DNA of 64,000 nt, taken from assembly GCF_014839805.1 (NCBI RefSeq), contig NC_051115.1:3656600-3720599 (forward strand). Direction: 5' to 3'. Below are positions 17,345-58,230 of this stretch, piece after piece (within the stretch, counting starts at the first letter, position 1; each line of letters starts with the position of its first letter). Under the pieces are notes generated by a model. That model was not told the DNA's origin. It made no database searches and was given only the letters and a program-made list of their open reading frames with translations. The position numbers were made by a program, and so were the translations under genes. The DNA comes from Manduca sexta (lineage: Eukaryota; Arthropoda; Insecta; Lepidoptera; Sphingidae).

Positions 17345-17416
17345 AAAAAGCTTTCGATGCTTTATATTTAATAAAATAATCAAGGTAACAGTTTCTTGCC
17401 AAAGTCGTCGTGTAAT
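17345..17416 (-). other. Ig-like gene exon 37: 3' UTR
   Basis: A strong acceptor (CTTGTTTCAG) at 17,417 opens a short exon containing ATTAAA, a variant poly(A) signal, at 17372-17367. The 3' end at about 17,345 is inferred from the usual 10-30 nt spacing. Confidence 0.5.
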
Positions 17417-20400
17417 CTGAAACAAGACACAAATTTCACTATAATATAATATAATAATATCAGCCTTATATACTGTTCCACTGCTGCACGGGCCTTCTTT
17501 ACTACTGAGAGATCAGGCCTTAGTCCACCACGCTGTAGTGCGGGCAGACTTCGCACACCCTCAAAATTCCTATAGAGTTTCTCAGGTATGCAGGTTTCCT
17601 CACGATGTTTTCCTTCACTTAAAGCAAGCGATAAATCAGTTGGACGGTTGCCCGGTTCGCCTTCCCTTAAGGCCGTTTCTTCCTACAAAGTAACTCACGA
17701 ACATTTTCTCTTTTTGATATTCTTATAGACTACTTTGTGAAAATGTAGTTTCTATATAGACGAGACGAGCTTGCCGTTCGCCTGATTGTAAGCGATACGA
17801 TCCACAAACAGTAGAAACACCAACACCTTGAATTACAAAGTATTGTTTGGTATTCCACTGCGCTCGTCTGAGACATGAGATATTGTCTTATTATGTCCAG
17901 TAGTAACACTGGCTACAATGTTCTTCAAACTGGAACACAACAGTGACTACACACTGCAGGCCGACTCTTATATGAGAAACCTACCACATGCTACATGTTT
18001 TTCAAAAAATAAGCACTGGACTCAGTTACATAACAAGAATTGAATGTTTTGTTACCTTCAAATCTAAACTTTAACTCGCAGCAACAGTGGTTTCTTCAGC
18101 TGCTGCAGTTGTCTCTCCCGCGGTCTCGGTAGCCGCACCACTGTCTGCACTCGCTTCAGAAGCAGCTGCAGTTGTTGTTTCTACAATATGACCTTTTCAT
18201 TAGCCAGGACTAGTGTTGCCTCAATTTGCGCGGGACGTCCCGATTTTCTGAGTGCTTGGGACGTGCCCAATTGACGGACGTGATAAATCCCGGATCCCGG
18301 ACACCGCTTTAACCCTCGAAGTAGAAAAAGATGGCGGATCCCTAAGATGTTTTTATTACATAGATACGTTGTCCGAGCTCAATACTAGCAAGACGAAAGC
18401 AAGGTAATTGCCCGACATTCACTTAGTCAACCTCCAACCACTGTTGCGGCTAGTCGGTATACTAACTTTTTGTATGTTATAAATAAAATTCCTTTCTGTG
18501 TTTTTAGACGATGTACAAATTATACTCCAACTGTGAATGAAAAAACGTTTCATTTCATACGTTAGTAATAAGTATACACTCTAACTTATTTTTAAGTAAT
18601 AAATGCATTTTATTCGACTGTCATGGCGACCAGAGACCGATAAACTAGATGGCCACGGCGGTCGACGCTCGGGCCGTATCAATGCGAGCTGCTAGGGCTG
18701 TACAAGTATGTGACTATAGTAAATACTGCACTGGTTTTATGTGCAATATTGTTATTCTATGACGCGTCTATTTGTAAAACGTTATTGGCGGATCGAATTG
18801 GATTCATCTGGATGGTTAGAAGGATCTTAGAGAGGCCTTTGCCAAACATTCGTTATAAGGTAACGGAACTTATAAGTTCCACGTAATTTTAAAATGTTCA
18901 TAAAAGTCTTGCGTGTGTACTTATGTACGCACGAAGTTATAGTTTGATTAAATAAATTTACCTGCTCCTGCGCCGTCTGGAATAAACAGGAAAATATTTA
19001 ATAAATGGTTCAAATCACTGACACCGTATTATTTTTGATTAATCCAAAAAATACATGAGTAAAATTGTTGATGCAAAATCGACTTTATGCAAGACAATTA
19101 TCGTAAGGTTTTTAGCCTCTCCAATCGCTTAGGTAGTTAGTGAAAGGCTAGTAGGTTAGCTAGGTTAGGGCTCATATCCTCGCCGATGAGGATCGCGACG
19201 CGTTCCTCCCTTTATTATTAAGATTATATACATCTATTTTATTTCTTCTTTCCTGCCAACCCGAGTTTCTTTGCTTACTTCATAGTCTTTCACTTATTTT
19301 ATTTAAATAATAATTAAATATTCTCACTCCCTTGATTTTCAAAAGTGCAACTATGTTCGCCTACGTGAATAAAGCATTTTATTATTTCTGATTTAAAATA
19401 TTATTAATATCACTTTCGATCCGGGATTCGAACCCAACCACGAATCGGCCGTCATGCCGCCACCGAGGGAGACACGACACATTAATATCGACTGCGTAAC
19501 ACCTTGGAGTATCATTTATACCTGCGGGTGCTTCATCGTCTTTCTGAGATGGATCTCTGTAATGAAAATTAAATAAATTTATGGTATATATAATAATGAT
19601 AATATCAGCCCTGTATTATATACTGTATCACTGCTGGGCGTCCTCTACTGAGAGGGATTAGACCTTAGTCCACCACGCTGTAGTGCGGATTGATAGACTT
19701 CACACACCCTCGAAATATAAAGAACTTCTCATGTATGCAGGTTTCCTCACGATGTTTTCTTTCACCGTTAAAGCAAGCGATAATTCACAAAGAATACATA
19801 ATTTATAAAAGTCAGAGGTGTGTTTGGGTTTTGAACCTGCATACATTCGTCTCGGCAGTCCGTTCCACAATCAACTAGGCTACCGCCGCTATTTTTATGA
19901 AGTAACGAAATATATAACTAGTTTTTGCTCGCTACTTCGTCCGCATGAAAGAGTTTTCCAGGACAAAGTCCTATATATTTTTCCAGGATAGAAAATAGCC
20001 TATTATTAACAAAGTCCCCCGCTGCAACTGTCTGCCTGTCTGAACGTGTTAAACTCAAAAACTATCCAACGGATTTTGATGTTTGGTACGTAGATAGTTT
20101 GAGACTCTGTGAAGGTCATGGACTACTTTGTATCCCGGAAAAATGTATAGCGGGACCTTTACCCTGGAAACCATTTACACGCAAGCCAAGCCGCAAGCAA
20201 AAGCTAGTTTGATATTAATGTCATCTTGATACCTCTACGCGTTTCAGTGGAATACCAAACAATATTTTGTACTTAAGGCGATACCTCAAGGTCCATTTTC
20301 ATACATTTTGTTTCACCTTTAATCTGGGTAACTAAACAAGTATTTTGTCATATTAAATTTTAAAGGCTGAAATATCCATGATTATTAATTATTTTTACGT

Positions 20401-23400
20401 TTTTATTTCAACTGCGAGAACTAATCACTAACTAGACGTGAATTTAAATTCTTTACTTGCCAATACTTGTTTAGTTACCCAGATTAAAGGTGAAACAAAA
20501 TGTATGAAAATGGACCTTGAGGTATCGCCTTAATTAAAATTAAACTATTTTACGGATTTTATCGCGGTTTTAATTATTTTAGTTTCCTCCCGACGTTTCG
20601 AAAACTGCAGCCTTCATGGTCACGGGGCGGTCCCCCCCGAATAATAATTTAATTAAATCCGAAAAATAGTTTAATTTAATGTCTAACAATCGCGTAAACA
20701 TAAGAAATATTTATGCAAACCAATACTTTGTAATTCATGGTGTTGGTGTTTCTACTGTTTCAGATCGTATCGCTTACCATCAGGCGAACGGCAAGGTCGT
20801 CTCGTCATTCAACGTAAAAAATAAGGATGGAAGAGCCGATAGGGGTCGACCGCACCAAACCTTCGAATGTCAGATCACATTCTTAGTAAAGGCCATCAAA
20901 AATACTCTGAACCGGCAGGAATGCAAGATAAATGAAGGTGGAGGAAGCGAGAGAAGTATGCCAAAATCGTGCAAAGGGACCGTTCAAGTATTACGTAACG
21001 CAATTTGGAGAGGAGAGGGAGTCTTGTAAAACGTTACGATGCGTAACAGACGCGGGAAGGTTTTCGAACACCGCGTTACGTAACATTGGATTTTTTATTT
21101 TAAAACAATAACAAAGGTATTTTAGCGATTTTCCGGTACTTTGTGAAAAAAAATGTAATTTTAGAGTTACATAACTTTTGGAGGGGGCGGGGGGTGTCAA
21201 AAATCTTAAAAATATGCGTTATTTCATACTCGAACGGCCCAAAAGTTGCTATCCAGTCTCTGCCTACCCCTACGGGATAGAAGTGTGATACTATATATGA
21301 GTCCTTATTGACACTTACTTAAGCTCCAAAATAGTTTTGGTAACATTTCCTCCTTGCGTGCCGAAGACGGCCTGGTACACCCCTTCGTATTCAGGCGTGA
21401 ACTCATTTATTCTCAACACAATTGATGATTGCGTCAACTGTAACAATAGGGTACCGGACTCATTTTTGTTCTTTACTATTATCAAATATTTACATAATAG
21501 AAATTATAACACAGAAGCAATTATTAAAATCCGGTAAAAAATCAACAAGTTATAAGTCTTTGAATTTCGGTGGAAAGGGTAATTTACAAGAAACAGAAAA
21601 GAGACGAAATATCCACACGTGACGTCATCGGGAATTCCGACGCGGGCTAAAGAAAGAGATGAAGCGATATCCCCACATCGCGCCCACTTCTGTACATTAC
21701 AATATTTTAAATATGAATTGCTCGCTCATTTTTTAACCAATTTTAATGCAGTTATCGCAGCAGTGCTTCTTTTTCGTATTATTAACCATTACATATAGAA
21801 TAATGTACAAAATCAAGCATAGGCCGGTCCCCAATTAGGGTGTTTGTCAGCCGCCGAGGGTTAACCAGCTCTCGTCAGTCGAAATTATTGAATCCCTCTC
21901 CACTTACCATCAGGTGTAGTGAGGTGACTGCCGTGCAAGTATGAAAAGTTGAATCCCCTCCTAGCCGAATTTCGGCCACGGCGGCCAATCTCAGCAGAGA
22001 TCAGCCAGGTACGCAGGAGATATTATAGTGCACAAGTGTGTGCGCAGTACACAGGTGCACTCTCTGTTCCTTCACTCTCATAGTTCGGTGAGACGGCAAT
22101 CCGACATGACCGGAGAGAGATCAGGCGCAGGACCAACGGCTTTACGTGCTTTCCGAGGCACGGTATCACACCGCCAACTTCTTGACTCCGAGCTGCGACT
22201 GAGTAATTTTTTTAAGATGGAAAAACCCAGTCCCAATTATTTTTGGCCCGACCCGGGATTCGAACCCAGGACCTCAGCGCGGCAGTCGTACTTGTACCGT
22301 GTACACTTACAACTACGCCGCCGAGGGCAGTCAAGTCAATAAAAAGTACTCGCTTACTTACCACATAGAAAGCATAGGGGCCAGCTGCATTACTCCTTCT
22401 GCCGCCAGACATTTCAAGTACTATTCCATTTACTGATACCTGAAAATAGCACACATTACTTAACACACTCCCTCAAGCAAACGGTCTTGAGTATTCGTTC
22501 CATACATTGGCATACGTTACGGCGGGAAAATGTAACCCCCTCATTCATAAACGTTATTTATCTAAGGACGGAGCATTGTGATAACAAGTCTGTTTCTCAG
22601 TTCTGACGGCAGCCTTCGCAGTGCGTAGACATAGGGCCGTTGTGATTGGCTAATATTGAGATACAACTTGAATCTAGTTGGCTGTCAGATAAACAAAGCT
22701 GAGAAACAGACTTGTTATCACAATGCTCCGTCCTTAGATGAATAGCGTTTATGAATAAGGGGGTAAAGGTTTACGGTTTGTAAATTTATTAATTTTGCAC
22801 GCCATTGGCAGAATATCAGAATTTTTAAATTATATTACCATCCTATGTTTTGTACCTATATTCAATGCAAATAAAAAAATATGATTATGATATTTTAATT
22901 TATTTTAAAAAGTAATTAAAAAAAATCGGTTTAATAATTGGGCTTCGTCGACGTGGTTCAATAATTGGGTTCTAGTCGACGTGGAGATCCTTGGGGGAGG
23001 CCTATGTTCAGCAGTGGACTTCCTGTGGCTGAGATGATGATGATGAATTGAGCTTGTGGGTACGCGTCGTGGGTCGTTAAATACCAAAGGTTCCGAGGTT
23101 GTATTTGTTTATTGTCGATTTAAACATAAAAATGGGTTACAATAATAACAAATAGCGCGTGCGCGTGCCTGCCGCTACAAAAAGTGTGGTATTGGTGTTG
23201 CTACATTGCAACTCATGTTGCCAGAATGCAACCGGGGTTGCTAGACAAAAATCGTGCGTTTAAACGCCACAGGCTTCTACCTACGTATTCGGGTGTAAAT
23301 GGTGTGAATATATAATATAGATGTCAAAACAGACCTTTTCGACAGTACAATCGTCACAAGAGTAATTAATTTCTTGTTCGAATTGCTCGCCTTGTTTTGG

Positions 23401-29400: not shown

Positions 29401-29885
29401 GCGATGGTTATAGGATAGGAATGGCGAACCAGTGATACGTGTGCCAGTGGTGGCACGCGCCAAAATAATTAATAATAAAAAAAAATATGAGCCCTGTATT
29501 ACTATCCCACTGCTGAGCACGGGCCTCCGCTTTTACAGAGAGGGATTAGGCCTTAGACGACCACGCTGGCCTAGTGCGGATTGGTAGACTTCACACACCT
29601 TCGAAATTCCTATAGAGAACTTCTCAGATGTGCGGGTTTCCTCATAATGTTTTCCTTCACCGTTAAAGCGAATGATAAATTCACAAAGAATACACACATG
29701 ATTTTAGAAAAGTCAGAGGTGTGTGCCCTTGGGATTTGAACCTGCGGACATTCGTCTTGGCAGTCCATTCTGCAACCAACTAGGCTATTGCCACTACAAG
29801 CTTGCCCTAGTGCTTTTACTATTTACACGATTCGTTCATTGGTTTGAGCAACATCACACACAGTCATAAACACGCTCACGCATTT

Positions 29886-29916
<31 letters not shown>

Positions 29917-35900: not shown

Positions 35901-36596
35901 CACGCGCCTCCTCTACTGAAATGGATTAGGCCTTAGTCCACCACGCTGTAGTGCGGGCAGACTTCACACACCCTCAAAATTCCTATAGAGGCCTTCTCAG
36001 GTATGCAGGTTTCCTCACGATGTTTTCCTTCGCCGTTAAAGCAAGCGATAATTCACAAACACACACATGACTAGAAAAGTCAGTGTGTTTGGGTTTTGAG
36101 CCCGCAATTCGTCTCGGCAGTCCGTTTCACTCCCAAACATTCGTAGGCTGTCACCGCTTTTTTTTTAAAGTATTAAACAATAATAAAAAGACATTCAAAT
36201 AATTAAGAATTATTAAAATAATCTTACATTTTCAAGTGTTGTCAGTTTGTGTTGCTGTAAAACAAAACAATACCAAATTATAAGAGCGAAAGGTGAAATT
36301 TTTCAAAATGTAACTCGATGCTGACAGACCGACGACCTGGTGAAGGTCGCCGGAGTCCGATGGATGAGGGCGGAACAGAACCGGTCTCTGTGCCGCTCAA
36401 TGGGGGAGGACTATGTCCAGTGGACGATCCCGGATGAAATGATGAACTCGATGCAAAAAAAAAATGATCTACATATCGCTGCCAATCTATGCATATTATA
36501 AAACGAACGAATATATCTATTGTATATATTTTTTGATTAGGTATTGAAGTTAACTTGTAATTTAGATATAGTTGTGTAATGTGTATACCTGTAATA

Positions 36597-36656
<60 letters not shown>

Positions 36657-48600: not shown

Positions 48601-51600
48601 AAAAAGAAATGGATTTATGTAATGATTTCTTGATTTGTTTACTTTAGAATAGCGAAAATGCGAACAAAACCAAAATCAATCGCACCCTTTCTAATAATAA
48701 GAGGTGGTTTGTTCCGCAACTCGGCTATGGTGACTCCCTTCTCGCCATTTTGAATCGCAGTCATGATCCTTTTGTAAAGCGTTGTTCGTCGTTCCTGCTC
48801 TGCGATTATGTACGGTAAGAGTTCTTCTGATAGCACATCTACCTTCTTTTTCGCTTCTGCGTTCATCTGAATCAGCCATAGACACATTTGGAAAAAAATA
48901 AGTAGAAGCACCAGTTATGGACACTAAAGTTTCGTGTCCATAATGACCGATCGGGTCGCAGTAACTCGCTGCAACTTATTTCTCATGAACCCACCCCTAT
49001 ATAAAATGGATAAGATAGATTTATGCGCTGCGGCTGGACCAGACCCGTTCCAGTGGACGCAATCAATAATAGAATGTTTATAGTGAAGTTATAAAATAAT
49101 AGAGGTTATACACACTACCTAACTGAAAATAAGGGAACGGATTACGTATCAAATAATAGAACCTCATCCCCTCTTTCATCCTATATGGCAACCCCACGAC
49201 CTTAGGTCTTATAAAATAACAATTATTTTTGTGTAATCATTAAAAAAAGAACTAATGAAAACAAAATATATTTTGTTGCCTCTCTAGTGATGAACTTTTT
49301 AAATTTGAACGAATCATATCTAGGTACGAGGTATAACTAGGTTTCTATCTGCATACGTAATTTTGGCGTGTTATACCGTCTGTAGTTAAAGAATAATACA
49401 TACCCTATCTGCATCTTTGTTGAATTTAATCCCGGTTCCATCCTGAAATAATAATTATGTTCACAAGCATGGACGCCGCTAAGATTATTTTTAGGGAGGT
49501 GCATCTGCATCCTATAGTAGGTACTACACAAAATCATCAAATTTATGTATTTTTTTTTCAAATAATAATCGCGCGGGTACATTGACATATAGACACGAAC
49601 GTCCATATAAACTATTTGTTCAAAATCTGAACTAAAATGGCAAAACGTCACTGTTATAACCTATTTATTCAATTGAACAACAAATAATTTTACTTATTTG
49701 ACTAATATATTTAATTAAAATCCAGGTTTACACTTAGACTCGTGTTCTTATACCATGAGCGCCACTCCGTACACAACTACAAGCTATCATTATTGACCAT
49801 ACTAAAGTCAGTTTGAATGGATTGCAGTTCAATTCAGTTGAACACAGTGAATGTTCGGAACGCGAAATCTAGTACATAGTATATATACATCTATGCACGG
49901 GTATTTATATATTCTAAACTATAATAAAACCTCTGTGATCAATGATTCTCATTGTCATTCAGTAATTTTTATTGTGATTTGTTCCGGACAGTGGGGTGCA
50001 CGTACACCCCCTTGCACCCTCTCCCGGCGGCCATGTTCACAAGATAATAATTACAATCGAGCGTGAACAGATTCATTTAATAAAGTACTATTTCAGACAA
50101 ATATTTCTATATAGGAGCGGCGATGGCCTAGTTGGTTGTGGAACGGACAGCTGAGACGAATGTCCGCACGTTCAAATCAAAACACACACACCTCTGACTT
50201 TTCTAAAATTATGTGTGTGTGTGTGTGAATTATTGTTTGCTTTAACGGTAAAGGAAAACATCGTGAGGAAACCTACACACCTTAGAAGCTCTCTATAGGA
50301 ATTTCGAAGGTGTGTGAAGTCTACCCGCACTACAGCGTGGTGGACTAAAGCCTTATCCCTCTCAGTAGTAGAGGAGGCCCGTGCCCAACAGTGGGACAGT
50401 ATACAATACAGGGCTGGTATTATTATTATTATTTCTATATAGTAGAATTACTTACCACAGCCTGTCTTCTAACAATATTAGCTAAATACCTCCCCCTCCT
50501 AGTGGCCGGTAGTAACACGCTGCCTGCCTGAACTTCATCTCCAGTCTATAAATAAATAGTTATCGCCATGTTCTTACAATGCTATATGATTTACACACTA
50601 TTATAAGAGAAGGTATATTTTTATTGAGTATAATATATATTTTTTTATTGCTTTGAATGACGAGATGAGCTTGCCGTTCGCCTGATGGTAAGCGATACGA
50701 TCCATAAAGAGTAGATACACCAACACCTTGAATTACAAAGTATTGTTTTGTATTCCACTGCGCTCGCCTTCCTGAGACATGAGATGTTAAGTTTTATTAT
50801 GTTCAGAAGTTACACTGGCTACAATGTCCTTCAAACCGGAACACAACAGTGACTACACACTGCTACTTGGTACCAGAAATATATTGCCGTGGTACCTACT
50901 TAGGCGGACTCTCACATAAGGGAGACCTACCACCAGGTCGATATTCAATAAGTATTGGAAGATATTTTCACTTTTATAACAGTGAAAAAAATTCGCATAA
51001 GAAAAATATGTAGAAGGTGCGAATAGAGTCACTGATTTCCTATTTTATTTCTGATTAGGGCCGGGTAACGGTAGACTAGAAATCACGTAGTACAAAAAAA
51101 AGGTAAAACAAAATTTTCAAACCATAAACTTTTTTTTTTTTTGGTTTGATTTACTCCTTAAGGAGAAGGCAAAGGCTCTTAGCCATACAGCCTAGTCTGT
51201 CTTCTTTTATACTCCTTCTTTATTACAATTTAAAGGCCGGAGCCATATCTGTAATATTCTTGAATTATAAGACGAAAGTCATGTTTGCAACGTTCCCAAT
51301 TATAAGGCTGAAGCCATGTCTGAAATATTCTCAATTATAGGGCCGAAGCCATATCTGATATAGTCACAATTCTTAGGCCGAGGCCATGTCTGAAATAGTC
51401 TCAATTATAAGGCCGAAGCCATGTCTGCAATATTCTCAATTATAAGGCCGAAGCCATGTCTGAAATAGTCTCAATTATAAGGCCGAGGCCATGTCTGAAA
51501 TAGTCTCAATTATAAGGCCGAAGCCATGTCTGCAATATTCTCAATTATAAGGCCGAAGCCATGTCTGAAATAGTCTCAATTATAAGGCCGAAGCCATGTC

Positions 51601-54600: not shown

Positions 54601-57379
54601 TATTATTCCTCTCTCGCTTTATTACAATTTTTTTTCGAGCTTGTAATTTTTGAATTCGTTAAAATTTTCAAGTGTAGGATTGTATTTGAACCTTATATAA
54701 GCATCTTTACTATTTTTGACGGCCAACGCACAACTCTCATTCCACCAAGGAACTGTCTGATGCCGAATGTTCTTAATAGAATTAGTTTGATAGTGCAATA
54801 ATTTATTACTACTCTGTGGAATTGATTGCTCAACAGCTGTCATAATAATGTTATAGAATTTATTATATAACTCAAGTGGTTCAGATGATAAAAAATCAGA
54901 ATTGTCTAGCATTTTATTAACTAAAACAGAGAAAGTTTCCCAGTTGATCATACGAAGATTATATTTCCGAAAGTATTTCATGTTTGCAGATTCACTAAAG
55001 ACAGGAGGAAAACTATTGTTCAACAAAAGTTTAGTCATTGTTGGCAAATGATAGCTGCCTAAAGGATCATCATGAACCCACCATTCAGAATTAAGTGCCA
55101 ATGAAGGACTAATAAATGAAAGATCCAGTGCATTAGGTCGCCAAGTGTTAGTGCCAACCGTAGTAACATGTCCATCATTTAATAACACTAAATCACAATC
55201 ATCGAGGGAATCGAGAATGTCTCTGCCTCGTGCATCAGTTGAAGAACAACCCCACAAGACATGATGTGCATTAAAAATCCCCTGATATAAAAGGCCGGTT
55301 TCGGAATACTGTTAATTAAGTTGATAAATTTAGATTTCGTAAATGTAGGGGTGCAATTAGTAGGACAATAAAAGCTAGCGATTGAAAGCGGCTTATTATT
55401 TATTGTTATTTTTATTACAACGTTTTGTAGCGAATCATCACAATAAGTCTCTATATTCTCATAATAAATACTGTTGTGAATTACTATAGCAACACCATTA
55501 TGATGATTGCCACAGTCATTTCGCACAATAGAATAACCTTTTATATTGCAACGATGATGAGGTTTGAGCCAAGTCTCAGATATAATGGCTATATGAATTG
55601 AATGATCAAAAAGAAATTGGGTAAAATATGCCGATTACACAAAAGACTTTGTGCATTCCACTGTACTATATTTAACTGATTGTGGGTGAATTCGAAGAAG
55701 AAATATTTTTAGCTTTGAATGTTTCATTAACTATGTCAAGCACACTTTTAGAGCAAATGGGTGTATCTTTAGTTTTACTTAAGGTTACAATTTTAACTAT
55801 TGACTCAACTAAAATGTTTAATGCTTTATTGTCTGAGTTAAGAATGGTGAGAAAGTCAATATCGCGTTTTTTTGTTTGAGAGGAGGAAAATTTTTTTCAT
55901 CAAAAATGTCTGCAAAGGATTTGGGCATGTATTTATTTTTATTCTCTTCTATTTTCTTTTTCTTTATAGGGCATACACCAGAAATGCTGATGTGGTTGCC
56001 CTGGCAATGTACACACATAAAGCTTCTTGCATTGTTTTGTTACATGTTTAGTAATTGTGGCTTTCACTGCATATGGAGAAAAGTTCAGATATTTTGCAAA
56101 ATTTAGATAAATGGCCATACCTCAAGCACCGGTAGCATTGTTTGACTGGAGGCACATACTTTGTGATGTCATGTCTCCACCCTGCTAAATCGACATGGTC
56201 TGGAAGAACAGAAGCTGCAAATGTGATTGCTACAGTTTGGGTTGGCTGTTGAATAAAACCATTGTCAGTGTTAGTTTTGCGCAAAAATCTTCGGACACAA
56301 ATGATTTTTTTATAGGTAGACAACATTGTAAAAATTTTCTTATTTGTTAATTTTATTGGTACATTTCTTATAATGCCTGTAACTTCTGTTGAATAGGCAG
56401 GAATACTGGCTTTAAAATGATATTCTTTTAGGAAAGTTTGGTTATTTAAAAATGCATTGGCAAGACCAGGCTTTTCAAAATAAACACCAATTTTAAATTT
56501 ATTTAAACTTCTCAGATATTTAACCCCTTTGTTAAATCTTTTTAAGCAAGTAGATAATGAAAGCAGATCCCTGGATCCAATGGAACGTTGATTATCTGCA
56601 GATTCTACGAATACTACAAACTCTGCAGCTGCAGCATCTTCAGGATATCTCCTTGTATAGTCTGTGACATAATATGGTGCATATTTTACAACCTCTAATT
56701 GCTCCTCTTCACACTCTGAGGATGAAGAATCACCTGAGGTTTCCTCAGGCTTATCTTCAACAGTATCCCCTAAGCTATCTTTTTTCCGCTTCTTCGTTCG
56801 GCCCTTCCCCATTGCAAGAAATGAATTAAATATTTATTGAGCTAATATCTTATCAGTAGTTTTATTTACTTTTACTAAATTATCAGGATTTCGTTATATT
56901 TTAATATAAAAATTTTAAAATATATTTTAAGCCCGCCTAATCACTTGAAGGTTCCCGCGCTTTTCCAACAAGATTCCCCAAACCATAAACTTTTTTTTTT
57001 TTGGTTTGATTTACTCCTTAAGGAGAAGGCAAAGGCTCTTAGCCATACAGCCTAAAAAAACCATAAACTTACATGTAAAAAACTAAAAATGTCCATTACT
57101 GCATTCGTCTCCGACCTCTAAGGATATTGGTGGATTTGTTAAAATATTTCGGCCTTTTTCACAAACCAATAGCAAAGGGTAGTGTTTATATAAAAATGAT
57201 ATTCAATCACTCAATATTCAAGTAGTAAAGATTATTCTATAATTACAATTCAGATTTAAAAAGCTTTTATTTTTTTTATGACACAAATTAATAAAAAAAA
57301 AACATACCGGTGGATATCCACAAATAACTAAAGGAAGAATATAAAAAAAATTAAATAAAATAAACGATTTGTGTATCAT
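17345..57379 (-). CDS. Microexon-rich secreted Ig-like protein (whole gene model, 37 exons)
   Basis: I do not recognise a named gene. Thirty-six coding exons on the minus strand join in one frame to 2310 nt (769 residues plus stop). Residues 1-24 are a signal peptide; about 40-142 are a basic, helical region; about 143-292 hold several Cys; about 293-312 are a very acidic microexon-coded hinge; about 313-416 form a first Ig-like module; about 417-516, 525-613 and 617-717 are three Ig-like domains with a C-x2-C near the B strand and D/E-x-x-x-Y in the F strand; 718-769 form a linker and an Ala/Thr/Glu-rich tail. No transmembrane helix is seen, so a secreted or haemolymph protein is inferred. 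Possible N-glycosylation sites are NGS, NYT, NAT, NYS, NVT and a microexon-made NDS. Phase agreement at every junction and the internal Ig homology are the main support. Single exons may be wrong or missed. Confidence 0.8.
17367..17372 (-). terminator. Poly(A) signal ATTAAA
   Basis: The common ATTAAA variant, about 45 nt into the last exon of the Ig-like gene. No AATAAA was seen nearby on this strand. Confidence 0.4.
17447..17645 (-). mobile_element. SINE family A, truncated
   Basis: Tail and body only; it stops at AAGCGATAAATCAG. Confidence 0.65.
17755..18000 (-). mobile_element. B element
   Basis: From GACGAGACGAGCTTGCCG to GAGAAACCTACCAC, in the 3' UTR intron of the Ig-like gene. Confidence 0.65.
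18056..18180 (-). CDS. Ig-like gene exon 36: Ala/Thr/Glu-rich C-terminus and stop
   Basis: Phase 1 in. The 36 residues are almost only Ala, Thr, Glu and Ser, like an O-glycosylated mucin-type tail, and end at TAA (18073-18071). A good donor, AAG|GTAACA, follows 15 nt after the stop, so a final intron lies in the 3' UTR. The junction is close enough to the stop that nonsense-mediated decay is not expected. Confidence 0.75.
18962..18976 (-). CDS. Ig-like gene microexon 35 (15 nt)
   Basis: ACGGCGCAGGAGCAG between GTTTATTCCAG and GTAAAT, phase 1-1. It gives Asp-Gly-Ala-Gly-Ala. Confidence 0.7.
19408..19475 (-). mobile_element. SINE tRNA-like head fragment
   Basis: GATCCGGGATTCGAACCCAA (B box on minus) and a GCCGCCACCGAGG end. 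Confidence 0.5.
19522..19556 (-). CDS. Ig-like gene exon 34 (linker, 35 nt)
   Basis: Codes the acidic linker DPSQKDDEAPA, phase 2 in and 1 out, between TTTCATTACAG and GTATAA. Confidence 0.75.
19596..19895 (-). mobile_element. SINE family A
   Basis: A full body with head AACTAGGCTACCGCCGC. Confidence 0.75.
19918..20225. mobile_element. Two Lep1-like ends in opposite orientation
   Basis: A forward piece (CTAGTTTTTGCTCGCTACTT to AAAATAGCC) meets a reversed piece (CAAAGTCCCCCGCTGCAACT to AAAGCTAGTTT). Confidence 0.55.
20277..20529. mobile_element. TTAA-flanked MITE, copy 2
   Basis: Same inverted ends as at 15.2 kb, flanked by TTAA (20,273-20,276 and 20,530-20,533). Its centre is inverted relative to copy 1. 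Confidence 0.75.
20540..20820. repeat. CCGACGTTTCGAAAAC-type repeat and B-element end
   Basis: TTTCCTCCCGACGTTTCG with TTTAACGG-type flanks on both sides, followed by TATCGCTTACCATCAGGCG. Confidence 0.5.
21319..21437 (-). CDS. Ig-like gene exon 33 (Ig domain 3, E-G strands)
   Basis: A 119-nt exon, phase 0 in and 2 out. INEFTPEYEGVYQAVFGTQG is a typical E-F-G run, again without the F-strand Cys, with a possible N-glycosylation site (NVT). Acceptor TATTGTTACAG, donor GTAAGT. Confidence 0.9.
21527..21745 (+). repeat. K repeat, copy 1
   Basis: AAGTTATAAGTCTTTGAATT, GTGACGTCATC, to AATTTTAATGCAG. A diverged copy lies at about 41,350-41,570. Confidence 0.55.
21960..22335 (-). mobile_element. SINE family H with full tRNA-like head
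   Basis: One 90-bp unit, then GACCCGGGATTCGAACCCAG (B box on minus) and AACTACGCCGCCGAGG. It lies about 25 bp beyond exon 32's donor. Confidence 0.7.
22362..22439 (-). CDS. Ig-like gene exon 32 (Ig domain 3 middle)
   Basis: A 78-nt exon, phase 0-0 (VSVNGIVLEMSGGRRSNAAG and on). NGIVLEMSGG aligns with NGESVLSGG of Ig2. Acceptor CTATTTTCAG, donor GTAAGT. Confidence 0.8.
22528..22768. mobile_element. J MITE, copy 2
   Basis: CCCTCATTCATAAACGTTAT to its complement ATGAATAAGGGGG. The long inverted ends make one hairpin. Confidence 0.7.
22925..23053 (+). mobile_element. LINE 3' end with GATGAT tail
   Basis: GGGGGAGGCCTATGTTCAGC and GATGATGATGATGA. Related ends are at about 9,300-9,430, 36,310-36,450 and, reversed, 29,060-29,235. 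Confidence 0.5.
23335..23435 (-). CDS. Ig-like gene exon 31 (Ig domain 3 start)
   Basis: A 101-nt exon, phase 1 in and 0 out (VKINTPLVANSPKQGEQF..., then INYSCDDCTVEK). SCDDC aligns with TCDNC of Ig2 and KCNRC of Ig1. The donor AAAAG|GTCTGT is weak but is the one that joins in frame to exon 32. Confidence 0.8.
23823..24008. mobile_element. TTAA MITE, copy 3, lacking one end
   Basis: The left end is after TTAA (23,819-23,822). The right inverted arm is missing; it stops at a reversed AATTTCGTCATATTAAAT segment. Confidence 0.65.
24287..24292 (-). CDS. Ig-like gene microexon 30 (6 nt)
   Basis: CACCCG between AAATTTTCAG and GTAAGC, phase 1-1. It gives Ser-Pro, completing the sequon. Confidence 0.65.
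24573..24578 (-). CDS. Ig-like gene microexon 29 (6 nt)
   Basis: ATGACT between TTATTTCAG and GTAAGT, phase 1-1. It gives Asn-Asp, the first part of an Asn-Asp-Ser sequon. Confidence 0.7.
25025..25110 (-). CDS. Ig-like gene exon 28 (Ig domain 2, F-G strands)
   Basis: An 86-nt exon, phase 2 in and 1 out. FDDTNSCVYMGLFKKDSK matches the F-G pattern of exons 21 and 33. Acceptor TTTCCTTACAG and donor GTAAGT are strong. Confidence 0.85.
25143..25300 (+). mobile_element. RTE-like retroposon end
   Basis: TGCAACATTTTCATTAATAC to AGATTAGCGCGTT, as at 15.6 kb. Confidence 0.5.
25415..25612 (-). repeat. R repeat, copy 2
   Basis: Reversed copy of the 5.8-kb repeat, lying 70 bp past the exon 27 donor. 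It supplies a decoy GTAAGG donor to a frame that is still open. Confidence 0.6.
25682..25803 (-). CDS. Ig-like gene exon 27 (Ig domain 2, middle)
   Basis: A 122-nt exon, phase 0 in and 2 out, with VSFTCDNCELLDVLCNGE and a GG-R turn. I end it at the weak donor CAG|GTTCTC. That gives the phase exon 28 needs and a natural FNFPS-FDD join. The frame stays open to a stronger GTAAGG at 25,575, but that donor lies inside an interspersed repeat and gives the wrong phase. Confidence 0.75.
25840..26155 (-). mobile_element. SINE family A inside the MITE
   Basis: A full-length copy with AATAAAATAAT target duplication at both ends (25,829-25,839 and about 26,160-26,170). Confidence 0.75.
26222..26415 (+). 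mobile_element. RTE-type retroposon piece
   Basis: AACCGACTTCAAAAAAAGGA and GAACCGATTTGG are typical of RTE-like elements in insects. Confidence 0.45.
26470..27185. repeat. About 145-bp tandem array, five units
   Basis: Each unit has AGTTGTGTTTTTGCGTT, CACACCTTTTCCCC, GGGGTAGGCAGAGGTGTAAC and CGCGATAGTCGTA. Units differ by small changes and TACA-run length. Confidence 0.7.
27225..27835. mobile_element. Foldback element with about 130-bp inverted arms
   Basis: AACCGCCTTCAAAAACCACT ... AATTGCTAGTTAAGCTAG at 27,240-27,363 is repeated inverted at about 27,712-27,835. The loop has a 62-codon frame with no known motif. Confidence 0.7.
28155..28466 (-). mobile_element. SINE family A
   Basis: A full-length copy ending about 30 bp from the donor of exon 26. 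Confidence 0.75.
28498..28556 (-). CDS. Ig-like gene exon 26 (Ig domain 2 start)
   Basis: A 59-nt exon, phase 1 in and 0 out (VLNAVRLKTSSKVGEHYDSQ). Acceptor TTATATTGCAG, donor CAG|GTAACA. It supplies the A strand before exon 27's VSFTC. Confidence 0.8.
28588..28870 (-). mobile_element. B element
   Basis: T-rich end, GATGGTAAGCGATACGATCC and body to GAGAGACCTACCACC. It starts about 30 bp upstream of exon 26. Confidence 0.65.
28970..28975 (-). CDS. Ig-like gene microexon 25 (6 nt)
   Basis: AAAATG between AATCATTTCAG and GTAAGT, phase 1-1. It gives Gln-Asn in the full chain, or a TAA stop if joined directly to exon 21. Confidence 0.7.
29484..29797 (-). mobile_element. SINE family A
   Basis: A full-length copy with slightly degenerate head AACTAGGCTATTGCC. 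Confidence 0.75.
29886..29917. repeat. CAT microsatellite
   Basis: About ten CAT units. Confidence 0.85.
30019..30024 (-). CDS. Ig-like gene microexon 24 (6 nt)
   Basis: ATGTTC between TTGTTATTCCAG and GTAAGT, phase 1-1. It gives Asp-Val in the full chain. Confidence 0.7.
30463..30468 (-). CDS. Ig-like gene microexon 23 (6 nt)
   Basis: AAATGG between GTTTATTTCAG and GTAAGA, phase 1-1. It gives Gln-Met after microexon 22, but a TAA stop if joined straight to exon 21. Confidence 0.7.
30560..30565 (-). CDS. Ig-like gene microexon 22 (6 nt)
   Basis: CTCCAC between TTTTTTTTTTCAG and GTAAAT, phase 1-1. After exon 21 it gives Ser-Pro. Confidence 0.65.
30958..31240 (-). mobile_element. B element
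   Basis: From TTTTTATTACTTTTAATGAC to GAGATCTACCACCAGTAATA. Confidence 0.65.
31252..31530 (+). mobile_element. RTE-like retroposon end C, copy 1
   Basis: GACCCGACAGACGTTGTCCC to GGGATTCATTTATATATG. It abuts exon 21's donor. Two more copies are at 46.3 and 60.7 kb. Confidence 0.65.
31538..31656 (-). CDS. Ig-like gene exon 21 (Ig domain 1, F-G strands)
   Basis: A 119-nt exon, phase 2 in and 1 out. DFGDYFAIIQNEDGTEERVK is a classic F-G hairpin, but it lacks the usual Cys two residues after the F-strand Tyr. It ends GTT GTT T, so the next exon fixes whether the first hinge codon is sense or stop. Confidence 0.9.
33020..33200 (-). CDS. Ig-like gene exon 20 (Ig domain 1, A to E strands)
   Basis: A 181-nt exon, phase 1 in and 2 out, with a possible N-glycosylation site (NAT) and KCNRC near the B strand. 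Donor GTAAGT, acceptor TTATTCCCCAG. Confidence 0.85.
33736..33892 (-). CDS. Ig-like gene exon 19 (first Ig-like module, end)
   Basis: A 157-nt exon, phase 0 in and 1 out (GNLEVTQEIKGNFVYVTF..., then FKYENAASYYLRFRSKS). The YENAASYYLRF segment aligns with the F strands of the later Ig domains. Donor GTGAGT, acceptor ATTTCAG. Confidence 0.85.
34003..34323 (-). mobile_element. SINE family A
   Basis: Full length, from ATATCAGCCCTGTATTATAT to AGGCTATCGCCGC. Confidence 0.75.
34340..35168. mobile_element. L MITE with a second inverted repeat nested inside
   Basis: Outer arms: CAGGGTCAATATTGACATTG at the left and CAATGTCAAATTGACCC at the right. Inner arms of about 95 bp lie at 34,580-34,674 and 34,823-34,919 (CTACAACTTTGGTCCAGTAA and its complement). 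Confidence 0.65.
35344..35352 (-). CDS. Ig-like gene microexon 18 (9 nt)
   Basis: ACCCGAAGT between GTATTTTACAG and GTAAGT, phase 0-0, coding Thr-Arg-Ser. It is the only microexon here that is not phase 1-1. Confidence 0.65.
35483..35630 (-). mobile_element. Q retroposon, reversed
   Basis: CTACCACCAGTTCGGAAAGC and GGCAAGAAACTCTAG, complement of the 8.0-kb copy. Confidence 0.5.
35857..36157 (-). mobile_element. SINE family A
   Basis: Slightly rearranged near the head (CATTCGTAGGCTGTCACCGC). Confidence 0.7.
36228..36254 (-). CDS. Ig-like gene exon 17 (27 nt)
   Basis: Codes QHKLTTLEN, phase 0-0, between TTTTGTTTTACAG and GTAAGA. It can be skipped in frame. Confidence 0.7.
36599..36652. repeat. 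TA microsatellite
   Basis: About 27 TA units. Confidence 0.95.
36740..36910 (+). mobile_element. RTE-like retroposon end
   Basis: CTACTGAACGGATTTTTGTA to AGGCGAAGCCGCGGGCA. A related piece is at 45.5-45.76 kb. Confidence 0.5.
36957..37012. repeat. Short palindrome
   Basis: GGAAGCCGATAGGAATGGG and its inverted match CCCATTCCTATCGGCTTC across a 17-19 nt loop. Confidence 0.6.
37165..37470 (-). mobile_element. B element
   Basis: From the T-rich end to AAGTTACCTATTACCACT, ending about 20 bp from the donor of exon 16. Confidence 0.65.
37488..37606 (-). CDS. Ig-like gene exon 16
   Basis: A 119-nt exon, phase 1 in and 0 out. It opens acidic (EDDPNEFAPL), then KWPIPDGYDFDGTGIFRI. Donor GTAAGT, acceptor GTTTCAG. 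It begins the first Ig-like module. Confidence 0.8.
37684..37927. mobile_element. MITE, intact copy with TAAT duplication
   Basis: Ends CGCACTCTTAATAAAATAAT and its complement, flanked by TAAT on both sides. It is the intact reference for the broken copy at 25.8-28.0 kb. Confidence 0.7.
38405..38600 (+). mobile_element. M retroposon end, copy 2
   Basis: AGCGACCCGCCCCGGCATTC to ACTATGTAGTGATGAG, inside a duplicated segment with SINE-head remnants at 38,350 and 38,706. Confidence 0.55.
38808..38816 (-). CDS. Ig-like gene microexon 15 (9 nt)
   Basis: CTATACCTG between TTTATTCTAG and GTAAGT, phase 1-1. In the full chain it gives Ser-Ile-Pro. Its last five bases match those of microexon 14 shifted by one (ACCTG and ACCTT). 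Confidence 0.7.
39709..39720 (-). CDS. Ig-like gene microexon 14 (12 nt)
   Basis: AAATAATACCTT between ATAATTTACAG and GTAAGT, phase 1-1. In the full chain it gives Glu-Ile-Ile-Pro. Confidence 0.7.
39966..39971 (-). CDS. Ig-like gene microexon 13 (6 nt)
   Basis: AGGACG between GTTATTTTTCAG and GTATGT, phase 1-1. In the full chain it gives Lys-Asp. The same six bases open exon 16, which hints at local duplication. Confidence 0.7.
40309..40317 (-). CDS. Ig-like gene microexon 12 (9 nt)
   Basis: AATACGAAA between CTTATTTCAG and GTAAGT, phase 1-1. In the full chain it gives Glu-Tyr-Glu. Confidence 0.75.
40408..40665 (-). repeat. P repeat, copy 2
   Basis: The reversed partner of 17,024-17,290, ending in a C15 run and TTGGCGACGCCCT. 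Confidence 0.6.
40857..40865 (-). CDS. Ig-like gene microexon 11 (9 nt)
   Basis: GGTTCGATG between TTTTATTTCAG and GTAAGT, phase 1-1. In the full chain it gives Arg-Phe-Asp. Confidence 0.75.
40942..41160. mobile_element. J MITE, copy 3
   Basis: CCTTATTCATAGACGTTTTT to AAAACGTCTATGAATAAGGG. Confidence 0.65.
41350..41570 (+). repeat. K repeat, copy 2
   Basis: AAGTTATAAAGCTTTGAAAT and TGACGTCATCAAG, diverged from 21.5 kb. Confidence 0.5.
41977..41982 (-). CDS. Ig-like gene microexon 10 (6 nt)
   Basis: TGGAAA between TTTATTTCCAG and GTAAGT, phase 1-1. In the full chain it gives Met-Glu. Confidence 0.7.
42152..42160 (-). CDS. Ig-like gene microexon 9 (9 nt)
   Basis: ACGATTACA between TTATTTACAG and GTAAGT, phase 1-1. 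With the C left by exon 8 it gives His-Asp-Tyr. Confidence 0.75.
42395..42495. repeat. ATCCGG-ATTACC motif cluster
   Basis: Six imperfect repeats of ATCCGGTATTACC-like text in 100 bp, just past exon 8's donor. Confidence 0.6.
42543..42669 (-). CDS. Ig-like gene exon 8
   Basis: A 127-nt exon, phase 0 in and 1 out (TYKFVTELDPDREVCEHW..., then NPCQIGYIYS). It carries two Cys and directly precedes the run of seven microexons. Acceptor ATTATTTCAG, donor GTAAGT. Confidence 0.85.
42847..42864. repeat. G homopolymer
   Basis: An 18-nt run of G; its length is likely uncertain in the assembly. Confidence 0.9.
43170..43375 (+). repeat. R repeat, copy 3
   Basis: GAGACTTTCCCGCCTCACAC to CCTCTATAGCAACGC. 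Confidence 0.55.
43400..44600. other. No recognised feature in intron 7
   Basis: GC content is higher than in nearby introns at 43.4-43.9 kb, with overlapping short open frames on both strands. No motif or splice structure convinces me. Confidence 0.3.
44612..44766 (-). CDS. Ig-like gene exon 7
   Basis: A 155-nt exon, phase 1 in and 0 out (HKVEGPDLPRNGSTVIGCAP... to YRYYPDR), with two possible N-glycosylation sites, NGS and NYT. Donor AGG|GTGAGT, acceptor CCCCAG. It supplies exactly the phase shift needed between exons 6 and 8. Confidence 0.8.
44940..45265. repeat. D repeat, copy 2
   Basis: ATCGATATATATGTACTACG to AGAATATACGTCAATT. Confidence 0.7.
45493..45765 (+). mobile_element. RTE-like retroposon end, degenerate
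   Basis: AAAGTCCCCAAAAGCTGTCT to GTCACGAGCATAGCTAGTTT. Confidence 0.45.
45821..46028 (-). mobile_element. SINE family A, 5'-truncated
   Basis: Tail and body to AGCGATAATTCATAAA. The tRNA head is absent, and the copy stops 55 bp from exon 6. Confidence 0.7.
46083..46250 (-). CDS. Ig-like gene exon 6 (Cys-rich)
   Basis: A 168-nt exon, phase 1-1, containing MYRCPANRAP, DGSGIIMCEED, DSCLSAED and KYFFCNR. The donor ATC|GTGAGT is strong. A truncated SINE ends about 50 bp beyond the donor. The four Cys suggest an extracellular, disulfide-bonded unit. Confidence 0.8.
46330..46608 (+). mobile_element. RTE-like retroposon end C, copy 2
   Basis: GTTGATCCGACAGACGTTGT to ATAATATATAGATT. Confidence 0.65.
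46725..48165 (-). mobile_element. SINE family H carrying a 14-unit, 90-bp array
   Basis: The array (46,725-47,960) continues into the SINE body (CGGCTTTACGTGCCGAGGCA) and tRNA-like head (GCTACGCCTCTGAGG). Units hold GTGCACGAGTGTGTGCAATA and CTCATAGTCCGGTGAGA. Two units lack 2 bp, and a C/T site in GAYCGGAG varies among units. Confidence 0.85.
48226..48445 (-). mobile_element. tRNA-headed SINE, another family
   Basis: On minus: GTGGCTCGATGGTGTAGTAT and GGGTTCGAATCCCTGG are A- and B-box-like, followed by a non-tRNA body. Confidence 0.6.
48686..48866 (-). CDS. Ig-like gene exon 5 (charged helical segment)
   Basis: A 181-nt exon, phase 0 in and phase 1 out. It codes a Lys/Glu-rich, probably alpha-helical stretch (AEAKKKVDVLSEELLPY...). 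The donor chosen, AAGG|GTGCGA, is weak, but it alone gives the phase that exon 6 needs. The better-looking GTAAAC further on (48,652) would put a stop in exon 6. The acceptor CTGATTCAG has its pyrimidine tract about 20 nt upstream. Confidence 0.65.
49404..49442 (-). CDS. Ig-like gene exon 4
   Basis: A 39-nt exon, phase 0-0, coding DGTGIKFNKDADR. The DGTGI motif recurs in exon 16 and as DGSGI in exon 6. Acceptor TTATTTCAG, donor GTATGT. Confidence 0.75.
49575..49890. repeat. D repeat, copy 3, reversed
   Basis: GACACGAACGTCCATATAAA to CTAGTACATAGTATATATAC. Confidence 0.65.
50116..50430 (+). mobile_element. SINE family A
   Basis: GCGGCGATGGCCTAGTTGGT head to a TATTATTATT tail, 20 bp from exon 3's donor. 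Confidence 0.75.
50456..50545 (-). CDS. Ig-like gene exon 3
   Basis: A 90-nt exon, phase 0-0; the other two frames have stops. It codes a basic segment (TGDEVQAGSV... to RRQAV). Acceptor TTTATTTATAG, donor GTAAGT. Confidence 0.75.
50640..50940 (-). mobile_element. B element
   Basis: TTTTTTATTGCTTTGAATGA to GGAGACCTACCACCAG. Confidence 0.65.
51235..51812 (-). repeat. 35-bp tandem array in the LINE 3' UTR
   Basis: About 16-17 copies of a 35-bp unit containing AAGGCCGAAGCCATGTCTGA. The first copies (51,235-51,340) are diverged and the inner ones nearly identical, alternating AATAGTC and AATATTC variants. Confidence 0.85.
51932..55690 (-). pseudogene. LINE ORF2: endonuclease, reverse transcriptase, RNase H, frameshifted
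   Basis: Pieces in several frames cover the whole polyprotein. Endonuclease: IVQWNAQSL, then IAIISETWLKP with the catalytic Glu, and DLSFIS. Reverse transcriptase: KPDKSPNSPDSYRPIALTS, NQFGFRRGMS, QGGILSPLLY and QFADDLAIY with the catalytic Asp pair. RNase H: VFTDGAK, TAEAYAI, TDCMSV and TPSHIGVIGNERVDYLA. A Cys/His end CTYCNCGLIQSLDHIFFEC follows. At least four frame breaks (about 55,620; 55,275; 54,550; 53,750-53,790; 53,450) inactivate it, unless they are assembly indels. Confidence 0.85.
55818..56812 (-). pseudogene. LINE ORF1 (gag-like, zinc knuckles), frameshifted
   Basis: The frame opens MGKGRTKKRKKDS, with an acidic Ser-rich stretch, then a central domain, then CCHC knuckles: CYRCLRYGHLSKFC, and after a frameshift near 56,050 CVHCQGNHISISGVC. 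This is the ORF1 plan of I/Jockey-type elements, which coats the RNA. The frameshift makes this copy inactive as read. Confidence 0.75.
57073..57117 (-). CDS. Ig-like gene exon 2
   Basis: A 45-nt exon open in phase 0 on both sides (RSETNAV...), with acceptor ATATCCTTAG and donor GTAAGT. Because it is phase 0-0 it could be skipped without frame loss. The LINE target-site duplication begins at intron position +4 of its donor. The acceptor is only moderate, so the exon is less sure than its neighbours. Confidence 0.5.
57308..57379 (-). CDS. Ig-like gene exon 1: start codon and signal peptide
   Basis: ATG at 57379-57377 has A at -3. The 24 codons give a short basic start (MIHK), a long hydrophobic core and a likely cleavage after VICG. 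The exon ends in phase 0 at a GTATGT donor. The 5' UTR lies above 57,379. This is the only signal-peptide-like start I found upstream of exon 3. Confidence 0.7.
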
Positions 57380-58053
57380 ACTGCTTCGGCGCAGTAAAAC
57401 AACCTAAATGATTTTTATTTTTATATCAAGGCGTAGTTAAAAATAATTGCTATCGCAACGAAATAAACCAATTAGTCTTATCAAAATATAACTATTTTAT
57501 TTTTCTATACAGTAGCATTTAAAATATCGAGCCATTAGTATGTATCTACGATATTTTCTTTTAGGATGCATCTTTTTTATTGCTCCCTGCCACTAATTAC
57601 TTATTTTTTATCTGTTGTTTAAATAATGTTACCAGATTTCATAATATCACCAGGATAGTGAATAAGAAATAAATACATACTAATAAGGTGATGAGGTAGA
57701 TACTTTGTAGGATTGAATAATAAAATTTTGTAGTTATCAAAAGTAATAAATAATAAAAACAATCTGTTCTATTACCCATTTTACTATAGGTTATAATACA
57801 GATTAGATAAAATAAATCTTTTAAAAGTACATTATTATCTATGTGTAGGTACTTTTGCAAATAATTGGAGAGTTAAAAACTTTCTTTCTGCTCTTTAAAA
57901 CTTTCACCAATGACCTACTTGGTGGACTCACATAACACATTAGTACATACTCTTTTGTAGATATATCTTATCTGTGGTAAAGCCATTACAAATGGCGGCG
58001 AAGCGCGTACAGTTGTCAATGTATTTATTGTTGTAAATGTTAAATTGTATAAA
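57380..58053. promoter_or_regulatory. Head-to-head intergenic region, probable shared promoter
   Basis: 674 bp separate the start codons of the Ig-like gene (minus) and the ZAD gene (plus), 5' UTRs included. A short GC-richer patch with AATGGCGGCGAAG at about 57,992 sits 55-60 bp before the ZAD ATG and resembles a pleiohomeotic/YY1-type ATGGC site. The rest is AT-rich. Start sites were not located. Confidence 0.4.
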
Positions 58054-58230
58054 ATGGAACACGCATTGAACCCAAGACTTGATAAAGAAACAATTTACGA
58101 GATTTACCGAGCATGTCGCCTTTGCGGGGCCGGTGCTGGTTACAAAATGCCAATAATGCAAAACGTCATACACTTGGAGGATTCAGAAATAAATTTAAGC
58201 AAAAAAATACGGGAATGCGTGCAAATAGAG
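58054..58230 (+). CDS. ZAD gene exon 1
   Basis: 59 codons from the first ATG (AAAATGG context, A at -3) to GTAAAA, phase 0. It contains the first ZAD half, YRACRLCGAGAGYKMP, with both Cys of the first pair. Confidence 0.85.

Follow-up and report, generated by a model that had tools for sequence, protein, structure and literature searches.

In-frame microexons at the linkers of a probably secreted Ig-like protein gene of Manduca sexta, candidate optional hinge cassettes

The microexon genes (MEGs) of schistosomes encode secreted products from numerous short exons, whose lengths start at 6 bp and are mostly divisible by three, and they are alternatively spliced; PMC10526429 characterises them as a superfamily that comprises 35 genes in S. 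mansoni, with 10-20 very short exons and a longest protein of 189 residues. Bicycle genes, as portrayed in PMC9168663, have many small exons starting at codon position 2 and form a large family that evolves rapidly and has been implicated as gall effectors, and megacycle is described there as usually a single, relatively conserved large gene. Among the examples given in PMC8042270 and PMC8553928, a 9-nt exon alters Fasciclin I binding, small cassettes of ELAVL2 lie in linker or loop regions, and Ncam is likewise a microexon example; for Drosophila, PMC8042270 reports that a dedicated method added 104 reliable microexons genome-wide, 19 of them of 3-7 nt. The gene described here lies on the minus strand of a 64,000-nucleotide stretch of Manduca sexta DNA (contig NC_051115.1, positions 3,656,600 to 3,720,599), referred to as the window and numbered from its first letter. 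Its coding chain holds fifteen microexons of 6-15 nt, most of them in clusters at the linkers of a probably secreted protein with immunoglobulin (Ig)-like domains. We consider it reasonably likely, on the sequence comparisons below, that the cluster microexons are optional hinge cassettes in this protein.

The coding chain and its microexons

Exons were curated by hand on phase, open frame and splice score, which gave 34, and the result was compared with orthologs; a 35th exon, 50456-50545, was included because its peptide was found in orthologs. The reconstructed gene runs from 57379 to 18071 with 35 exons and 754 codons and is open throughout (Table 1). The first-pass annotation, made from the letters of the window, had listed 36 exons and about 770 codons ending at 17345; its long open chain stands, while the extra exon was not recovered and the stop codon lies at 18071. 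The fifteen in-frame microexons that it had described, fourteen in phase 1-1, were matched in the reconstructed chain, on the minus strand. Eight are of 6 nt, five of 9 nt, one of 12 nt and one of 15 nt, and the exception in phase is 35344-35352 (0-0). They form clusters of seven, four and two at domain linkers, with one further microexon, TRS, in the region of the first Ig-like domain and another, DGAGA, in the tail. Exons of 15 nt or less make up 15 of the 35, and the bulk of the coding length lies in exons of 59-181 nt. Splice sites are weak at the donors at 25682, 23335 and 19522 and at the last acceptor; the joins at 25682 and 23335 are backed by ortholog alignment. An earlier automatic chain, which passed through a retrotransposon in intron 1 and picked up numerous chance exons, was replaced by the curated one. 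An extra exon at 19328-19360 (GEHSCTFENQG), part of whose sequence recurs near 41.68 kb, was dropped because it had no counterpart in the ortholog sequences inspected, and the candidate small exons 41304-41330 and 35002-35022 were left out. A search of Rfam gave no match.

A scan for acceptor-N(3-18)-donor pairs, using approximate splice-site matrices, showed that strong pairs form a row on the minus strand from 42 to 24 kb. Between 18.5 and 43 kb on this strand, pairs 6-18 nt apart and scoring at least 14 were found 14 times at a multiple-of-three spacing and twice at other spacings. All 14 belong to the chain, and the fifteenth microexon, 24287-24292, scores 13.1. At the same score the plus strand of this region had 0 multiple-of-three pairs and 6 at other spacings. 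Resampled sequences gave a mean of 1.0 multiple-of-three pairs with a maximum of 4 (first-order Markov, n=60) and a mean of 1.3 with a maximum of 6 (second-order, n=400) against the 14 seen, in keeping with the extreme microexon density claimed at first pass. That these are chance splice-like sites, the real gene being the 714-codon chain without microexons, would agree with the open frame of that chain and with the 20 of 44 ortholog models that skip cluster 1, but the excess of pairs over the resamples and the linker peptides of the same length with similar residues in other species make it scarcely credible.

The microexon acceptors are TTATTTCAG-like, and the donor is GTAAGT in 10 of the 15, as the earlier remark of mostly GTAAGT donors had it. 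TTATT is found upstream of 10 of 15 microexons and 3 of 19 other exons (p=0.004, one among several patterns tried), and no significant difference was seen between the two groups in GTAAGT use (p 0.19), donor score (p 0.18) or acceptor score (p 0.056). A UGC motif just upstream of the acceptor is the signature of neural microexons that depend on the enhancer of microexons (eMIC; Srrm2/3/4). TGC occurs upstream of 0/15 microexons and 2/19 larger exons within 20 nt, 0/15 and 7/19 within 40 nt, and 3/15 and 9/19 within 60 nt. Weak blastn matches centred on microexons join 24573-24578 with 39966-39971 (E 9e-5), 30019-30024 (E 3e-4) and 40309-40317 (E 0.004), a DNA similarity among four microexons from which a common origin might be guessed. 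Past the splice sites, however, the flanks of microexons have an ungapped identity barely higher than those of larger exons (0.325 vs 0.289 upstream), and the microexon flanks are more AT-rich.

Protein architecture and linker peptides in orthologs

Comparison of the product with other proteins had been suggested at first pass. With a 724-residue version as query, 35 proteins were obtained, of which 32 align over at least 48% of its length (44-66% identity) and three over 27-33%. A profile built from 24 of the matches and an N-terminal profile lifted the total to 52 records with 42 species named, all of them from lepidopteran genera. In 7 of the 42 species there are at least two records, many of them partial. 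No relatives outside Lepidoptera were found by these searches, which need shared 5-residue words and limit candidates and length, so that distant relatives could escape them. A plausible functional name is carried by 0 of the 52; two Operophtera records are named as bacterial or plastid proteins, and in one Papilio record the protein is fused to an F-box protein. Two differing ortholog models of Euphydryas editha (P0014, P0021), which lie on contigs of equal length, perhaps represent a tandem duplicate. A literature search gave no paper for twelve ortholog LOC numbers, and the lepidopteran microexon literature found held nothing recognised as this gene. The gene is unnamed and seemingly poorly annotated, and combines a near-invariant domain of ~250 residues with relatives only within Lepidoptera in the searches made.

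The window protein consists of a signal-like start, an N-terminal domain of ~250 residues with eight cysteines, four Ig-like domains (A to D) and a Thr/Ala-rich tail, and the clusters of seven, four and two microexons code for the linkers that precede domains A, C and D (linkers 1 to 3). After the hydrophobic start no 19-residue window exceeds 0.96 on the Kyte-Doolittle scale, and the protein is probably secreted. In the AlphaFold2 model of the Vanessa ortholog, the region from about residue 301 to 712 folds into four beta-sandwiches, the N-terminal part is of low confidence and the mean predicted local distance difference test score (pLDDT) is 66.5; fold comparison groups the sandwiches with the Ig domains of titin, NCAM2, DIP and IgLON, and as modelled beta-sandwiches the four domains are Ig-like by fold. 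At the sequence level a V-set match in the window protein (E=0.15) is below the cut-off and PF00047 was matched in 1 of 24 orthologs (E=0.0053); Pfam and PDB sequence searches were below threshold or empty, a profile of 24 orthologs having 0 matches at E<=1 among PDB chains. Profile comparison of the Ig segments relates A to B (probability 94%) and C to D (97%), the other four pairs giving 14-77%. The lepidopteran secreted Ig-like protein of the first-pass annotation thus holds up, as lepidopteran in all 52 homologs, probably secreted from its hydrophobic start, and Ig-like by fold.

The N-terminal ~250 residues, or the ~210 present, are 80-94% identical to the window in 21 of the 22 orthologs compared, and 77% in the remaining one, a model with a duplicated segment. 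Average ortholog identity in the ten large exons of the Ig part is 25-56%, and this part is much less conserved by sequence than the N-terminal domain. Microexon conservation was counted only in orthologs carrying the peptides, with the large exons taken from the same orthologs, and the numbers are small: residues identical to the window are 34/58 for cluster 1, 37/120 for exon 15, 33/148 for exon 18, 68/180 for exon 19 and 43/78 for exon 20. For cluster 2 they are 14/32 vs 170/400 and 158/356 in the flanking domains (about 43%), and for cluster 3 12/16 vs 188/394 in the next domain. On these counts the conservation of cluster 1 exceeds that of exons 15, 18 and 19 and roughly matches that of exon 20; neither cluster 2 nor cluster 3 falls below its neighbours, and cluster 2 is ordinary.

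Ortholog peptides back 13 of the 15 microexons, linker states having been scored by eye. Linker 1 of the window, HDY-ME-RFD-EYE-KD-EIIP-SIP, has 20 residues from seven microexons and is matched without gaps over 20 residues in Vanessa P0003 (HNFVEDHDEYERDEFVPPIP) and Leguminivora P0030 (PDAPDTFEDYEKDEIVPPIP), with 11/20 identical in each; in Iphiclides P0001 it is two residues short and 12/18 are identical. It is reached by 44 of the 52 records, being full in 2, nearly full in 1, reduced to the first microexon in 7, partial or unclear in 4, skipped in 20, ended by apparent donor read-through in 8 and otherwise arranged in 2. The first-only form occurs in six LOC-named models from six species (P0002, P0006, P0013, P0020, P0024, P0040), and P0002 is labelled isoform X2. 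Linker 2, SP-QM-DV-QN, was located in 32 models and not in P0007 or P0011; it has 8-residue counterparts in 4 (TPEKDTEN, SPEKDPGN, SPDQDNEN, APSADKDN), is skipped in 15, meets a read-through end in 5 and is partial or unclear in 8. Counterparts of linker 3, ND-SP, were seen in 4 of 21 models (NNSP three times, NASP); 16 models skip it and 1 ends there. Peptides matching the 8- and 4-residue linkers come from Pieris, Vanessa, Maniola and Spodoptera litura. When the clusters are skipped in the window, the joined forms NELWQDDPNEF, TVVLLNAVRL and LAVFETVKI look like those of skipped orthologs. In Loxostege sticticalis P0017 linker 2 seems longer (GPTRQSNTLKNV), perhaps by extra microexons in that lineage.

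Proposed optional hinges and the competing readings

Directly supported are the position of the microexons in the exon chain, their in-frame symmetry and the matching linker peptides in some orthologs. As optional hinges, the cassettes would be included or skipped by the splicing machinery, mostly as blocks, under a regulation and to an effect that we infer; block use would adjust how long and how charged the hinges joining rigid domains are while the frame is kept. Linker 1 with its border has 11 D/E and 2 K/R in 27 residues, and its tyrosine, in DEYEKDE, has the most acidic surroundings of the 35 tyrosines in the protein and is a possible sulfation site, so that splicing of linker 1 could switch a sulfotyrosine docking site. 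Linker 3 yields an N-X-S sequon, NDSP, and a proline after such a sequon is unfavourable. The protein is probably an extracellular adaptor, whose near-invariant head would bind a conserved partner while the Ig arm would reach a faster-changing one. More tentatively, the three clusters may together be a conserved, splicing-controlled hinge device, in which blocks of 2-7 microexons set Ig spacing and linker 1 adds or removes an acidic, possibly sulfated tyrosine docking site. If true, one secreted protein could change its reach and its partner with every domain unchanged.

Several points weigh against optional hinges. Inclusion of the microexons in Manduca sexta is deduced from genomic DNA, and the frame stays open for 714 codons when all fifteen are dropped, so that an open frame does not prove their inclusion. 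All seven microexons of cluster 1 are skipped in 20 of 44 models, the LOC-named P0012, P0023, P0025 and P0027 among them. The ortholog evidence consists of peptides, residues being assigned to microexons from the exon borders of the window, and TRS (35344-35352) and DGAGA (18962-18976) are unconfirmed by orthologs. Residues 184-297 of the Vanessa model, which include linker 1, have a pLDDT below 50, but so has most of the first 297 residues, so that the low score no more than suggests disorder, and a flexible hinge, at linker 1. The sulfation and docking steps are guesses at the level of a motif.

The skipped forms could represent true isoforms, missed exons or a mixture of the two. It is possible, if rather unlikely, that the thirteen cluster microexons are always spliced in, with fixed linkers, and that the skipped or truncated models are annotation errors, 6-nt exons being unplaceable by short-read aligners and gene finders. 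Common aligners are reported to struggle with 3-7 nt exons in Drosophila (PMC8042270), and 8 models end as though the donor before cluster 1 had been read through, and 5 likewise before cluster 2, which is what a missed next exon would give. Two Spodoptera exigua records (P0028, P0031) hold different pieces of linker 2 (AP RP vs DK NN) that resemble the halves of the linker in S. litura, and look like incomplete models. Random annotation failure, however, fits poorly with the first-only form of cluster 1 in six LOC-named models from six species, a repetition that points to real alternative use; the isoform X2 label of P0002 also speaks against constant inclusion. The models that stop at cluster edges point to annotation failure or to intronic ends. 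Intronic polyadenylation at the clusters would give short secreted isoforms, of the N-terminal domain alone or with two Ig-like domains, and is compatible with the other readings; 13 of the 52 models end right after the exon before cluster 1 or 2, their peptides apparently reading through the donor into the intron, but automatic annotation failure is expected to give the same picture, and we hold such isoforms to be improbable.

Splicing-based diversity was also put forward at first pass, and ortholog models with and without the blocks agree with it in part. Its extension to a free system like that of MEGs or bicycle genes, with shuffled microexons yielding many secreted variants, is opposed by the conserved cluster 1, the subsets that make stops and the siting at linkers. 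Open frames are indeed left by 96, 11 and 4 subsets of clusters 1, 2 and 3, the Ig part is far less conserved than the N-terminal domain, and cluster 2 residues are not above their neighbours in conservation. However, a stop arises at a junction in 32 of the 128 subsets that cluster 1 allows and in 5 of the 16 for cluster 2, which makes free shuffling unlikely, and the peptides of cluster 1 exceed the two large exons that follow in conservation. The linkers are also mostly whole, first-only or absent, the partial or unclear states being 4/44 at linker 1, though 8/32 at linker 2. Free combination is therefore regarded as very improbable.

Coordinates, other elements and comparison with known systems

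Table 1. Exons of the reconstructed chain in window coordinates (c1 to c3, microexon clusters).
Feature	Position	Strand	Length (nt)	Phase	Content and evidence
Exon 1	57308..57379	-		0-0	Start codon, signal-peptide-like start MIHKSFILFNFFYILPLVICGYPP; donor GTATGT; ..CGYPP at same place in many orthologs
Exon 2	50456..50545	-	90	0-0	TGDEVQAGSVLLPATRRGRYLANIVRRQAV; ortholog identity 0.92
Exon 3	49404..49442	-	39	0-0	DGTGIKFNKDADR; ortholog identity 0.96
Exon 4	48686..48866	-	181	0-1	Conserved N-terminal domain; ortholog identity 0.95
Exon 5	46083..46250	-	168	1-1	Cys-containing N-terminal domain; ortholog identity 0.85
Exon 6	44612..44766	-	155	1-0	Cys-containing N-terminal domain; ortholog identity 0.91
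Exon 7	42543..42669	-	127	0-1	End of N-terminal domain (..NELW); ortholog identity 0.88
Microexon c1.1 HDY	42152..42160	-	9	1-1	Splice scores; HDY without other six in 7 ortholog models
Microexon c1.2 ME	41977..41982	-	6	1-1	Splice scores; gapless counterpart in P0003, P0030; residues little conserved
Microexon c1.3 RFD	40857..40865	-	9	1-1	Splice scores; counterpart in P0001, P0003, P0030
Microexon c1.4 EYE	40309..40317	-	9	1-1	Splice scores; identity 0.89, 3 orthologs
Microexon c1.5 KD	39966..39971	-	6	1-1	Splice scores; identity 0.67, 3 orthologs
Microexon c1.6 EIIP	39709..39720	-	12	1-1	Splice scores; identity 0.67, 3 orthologs
Microexon c1.7 SIP	38808..38816	-	9	1-1	Splice scores; identity 0.67, 3 orthologs
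Exon 15	37488..37606	-	119	1-0	Linker end and start of Ig-like domain A; ortholog alignment
Exon 16 QHKLTTLEN	36228..36254	-	27	0-0	Similar to QTRLTTLH in Bombyx mandarina P0040
Microexon TRS	35344..35352	-	9	0-0	Splice sites only
Exon 18	33736..33892	-	157	0-1	Ig-like domain A; orthologs and structure model
Exon 19	33020..33200	-	181	1-2	Ig-like domain B with CxxC; orthologs and structure model
Exon 20	31538..31656	-	119	2-1	End of Ig-like domain B; ortholog identity 0.56
Microexon c2.1 SP	30560..30565	-	6	1-1	Splice scores; P0002, P0003, P0006, P0013
Microexon c2.2 QM	30463..30468	-	6	1-1	Splice scores; P0002, P0003, P0006, P0013 by position; residues not conserved
Microexon c2.3 DV	30019..30024	-	6	1-1	Splice scores; P0002, P0003, P0006, P0013
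Microexon c2.4 QN	28970..28975	-	6	1-1	Splice scores; P0002, P0003, P0006, P0013
Exon 25	28498..28556	-	59	1-0	Start of Ig-like domain C; ortholog alignment
Exon 26	25682..25803	-	122	0-2	Ig-like domain C with CxxC; weak donor GTTCTC, join backed by orthologs
Exon 27	25025..25110	-	86	2-1	End of Ig-like domain C; ortholog identity 0.55
Microexon c3.1 ND	24573..24578	-	6	1-1	Splice scores; NN or NA in P0002, P0003, P0006, P0013
Microexon c3.2 SP	24287..24292	-	6	1-1	Splice scores; SP in P0002, P0003, P0006, P0013
Exon 30	23335..23435	-	101	1-0	Ig-like domain D with CxxC; weak donor GTCTGT
Exon 31	22362..22439	-	78	0-0	Ig-like domain D; ortholog alignment
Exon 32	21319..21437	-	119	0-2	Ig-like domain D; ortholog alignment
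Exon 33	19522..19556	-	35	2-1	Start of tail; weakly conserved
Microexon DGAGA	18962..18976	-	15	1-1	Variable tail; splice sites only
Last exon	18071..18180	-	110		Thr/Ala/Glu-rich tail and stop codon; weak acceptor, score 2.6

Intron 1 holds, at 51935-56833 on the minus strand, a fragmented non-long-terminal-repeat retrotransposon (long interspersed nuclear element) with endonuclease (PF14529), reverse transcriptase (PF00078) and RNase H (PF00075) frames. A 90-bp tandem array at 46726-47973 (13.9 copies, 98% match) is open for 363 codons on both strands, as a unit length divisible by three permits. Thirteen copies of a dispersed repeat (at most 3 mismatches), for instance at 28420-28441 (minus) and 2425-2446 (plus), occur in the window; the copies inspected have a box-B-like GGTTCAAA, and the repeat is perhaps, as a guess, a tRNA-derived short interspersed nuclear element. 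ARAGORN found no tRNA in the window. Head to head with exon 1, at 57961-58389 on the plus strand, lies the possible start of a zf-AD gene (PF07776, E=0.006, below the cut-off).

With schistosome MEGs the gene shares a secreted product, here probable, and short exons in multiples of three. It differs in encoding a 754-residue Ig protein from ordinary exons with clusters of microexons between them; it lacks the MEG layout of a signal peptide followed mainly by very short exons, and both MEG and bicycle genes, as described, differ from it in family structure and in conservation. The start at codon position 2, found in 14 of 15 microexons, is shared with bicycle genes, but the present protein has an Ig fold and its N-terminal domain is almost invariant, its microexons lie mainly at linkers, and many large internal exons stand in other phases, where almost all internal exons of a bicycle gene are small and begin at codon position 2. 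As secreted modular proteins often show phase 1 symmetry, the shared start suggests convergence. Hemolin is a lepidopteran immune protein with four Ig domains and is not known to have the long N-terminal domain; Ig-like domains are common to both proteins (Foldseek match to 1bih, E 2.6e-12, 12% identity), but the family profile is without a PDB sequence match at E<=1, and the likeness is at the level of the fold only. The gene would be a case of tandem microexons at the linkers of a secreted protein, and makes the recognition of four consecutive 6-nt exons testable. Small cassettes are also found in Fasciclin I, ELAVL2 and Ncam, with one or few there and thirteen in three clusters here, and against the 19 microexons of 3-7 nt added genome-wide in Drosophila there are eight of 6 nt in this single gene.
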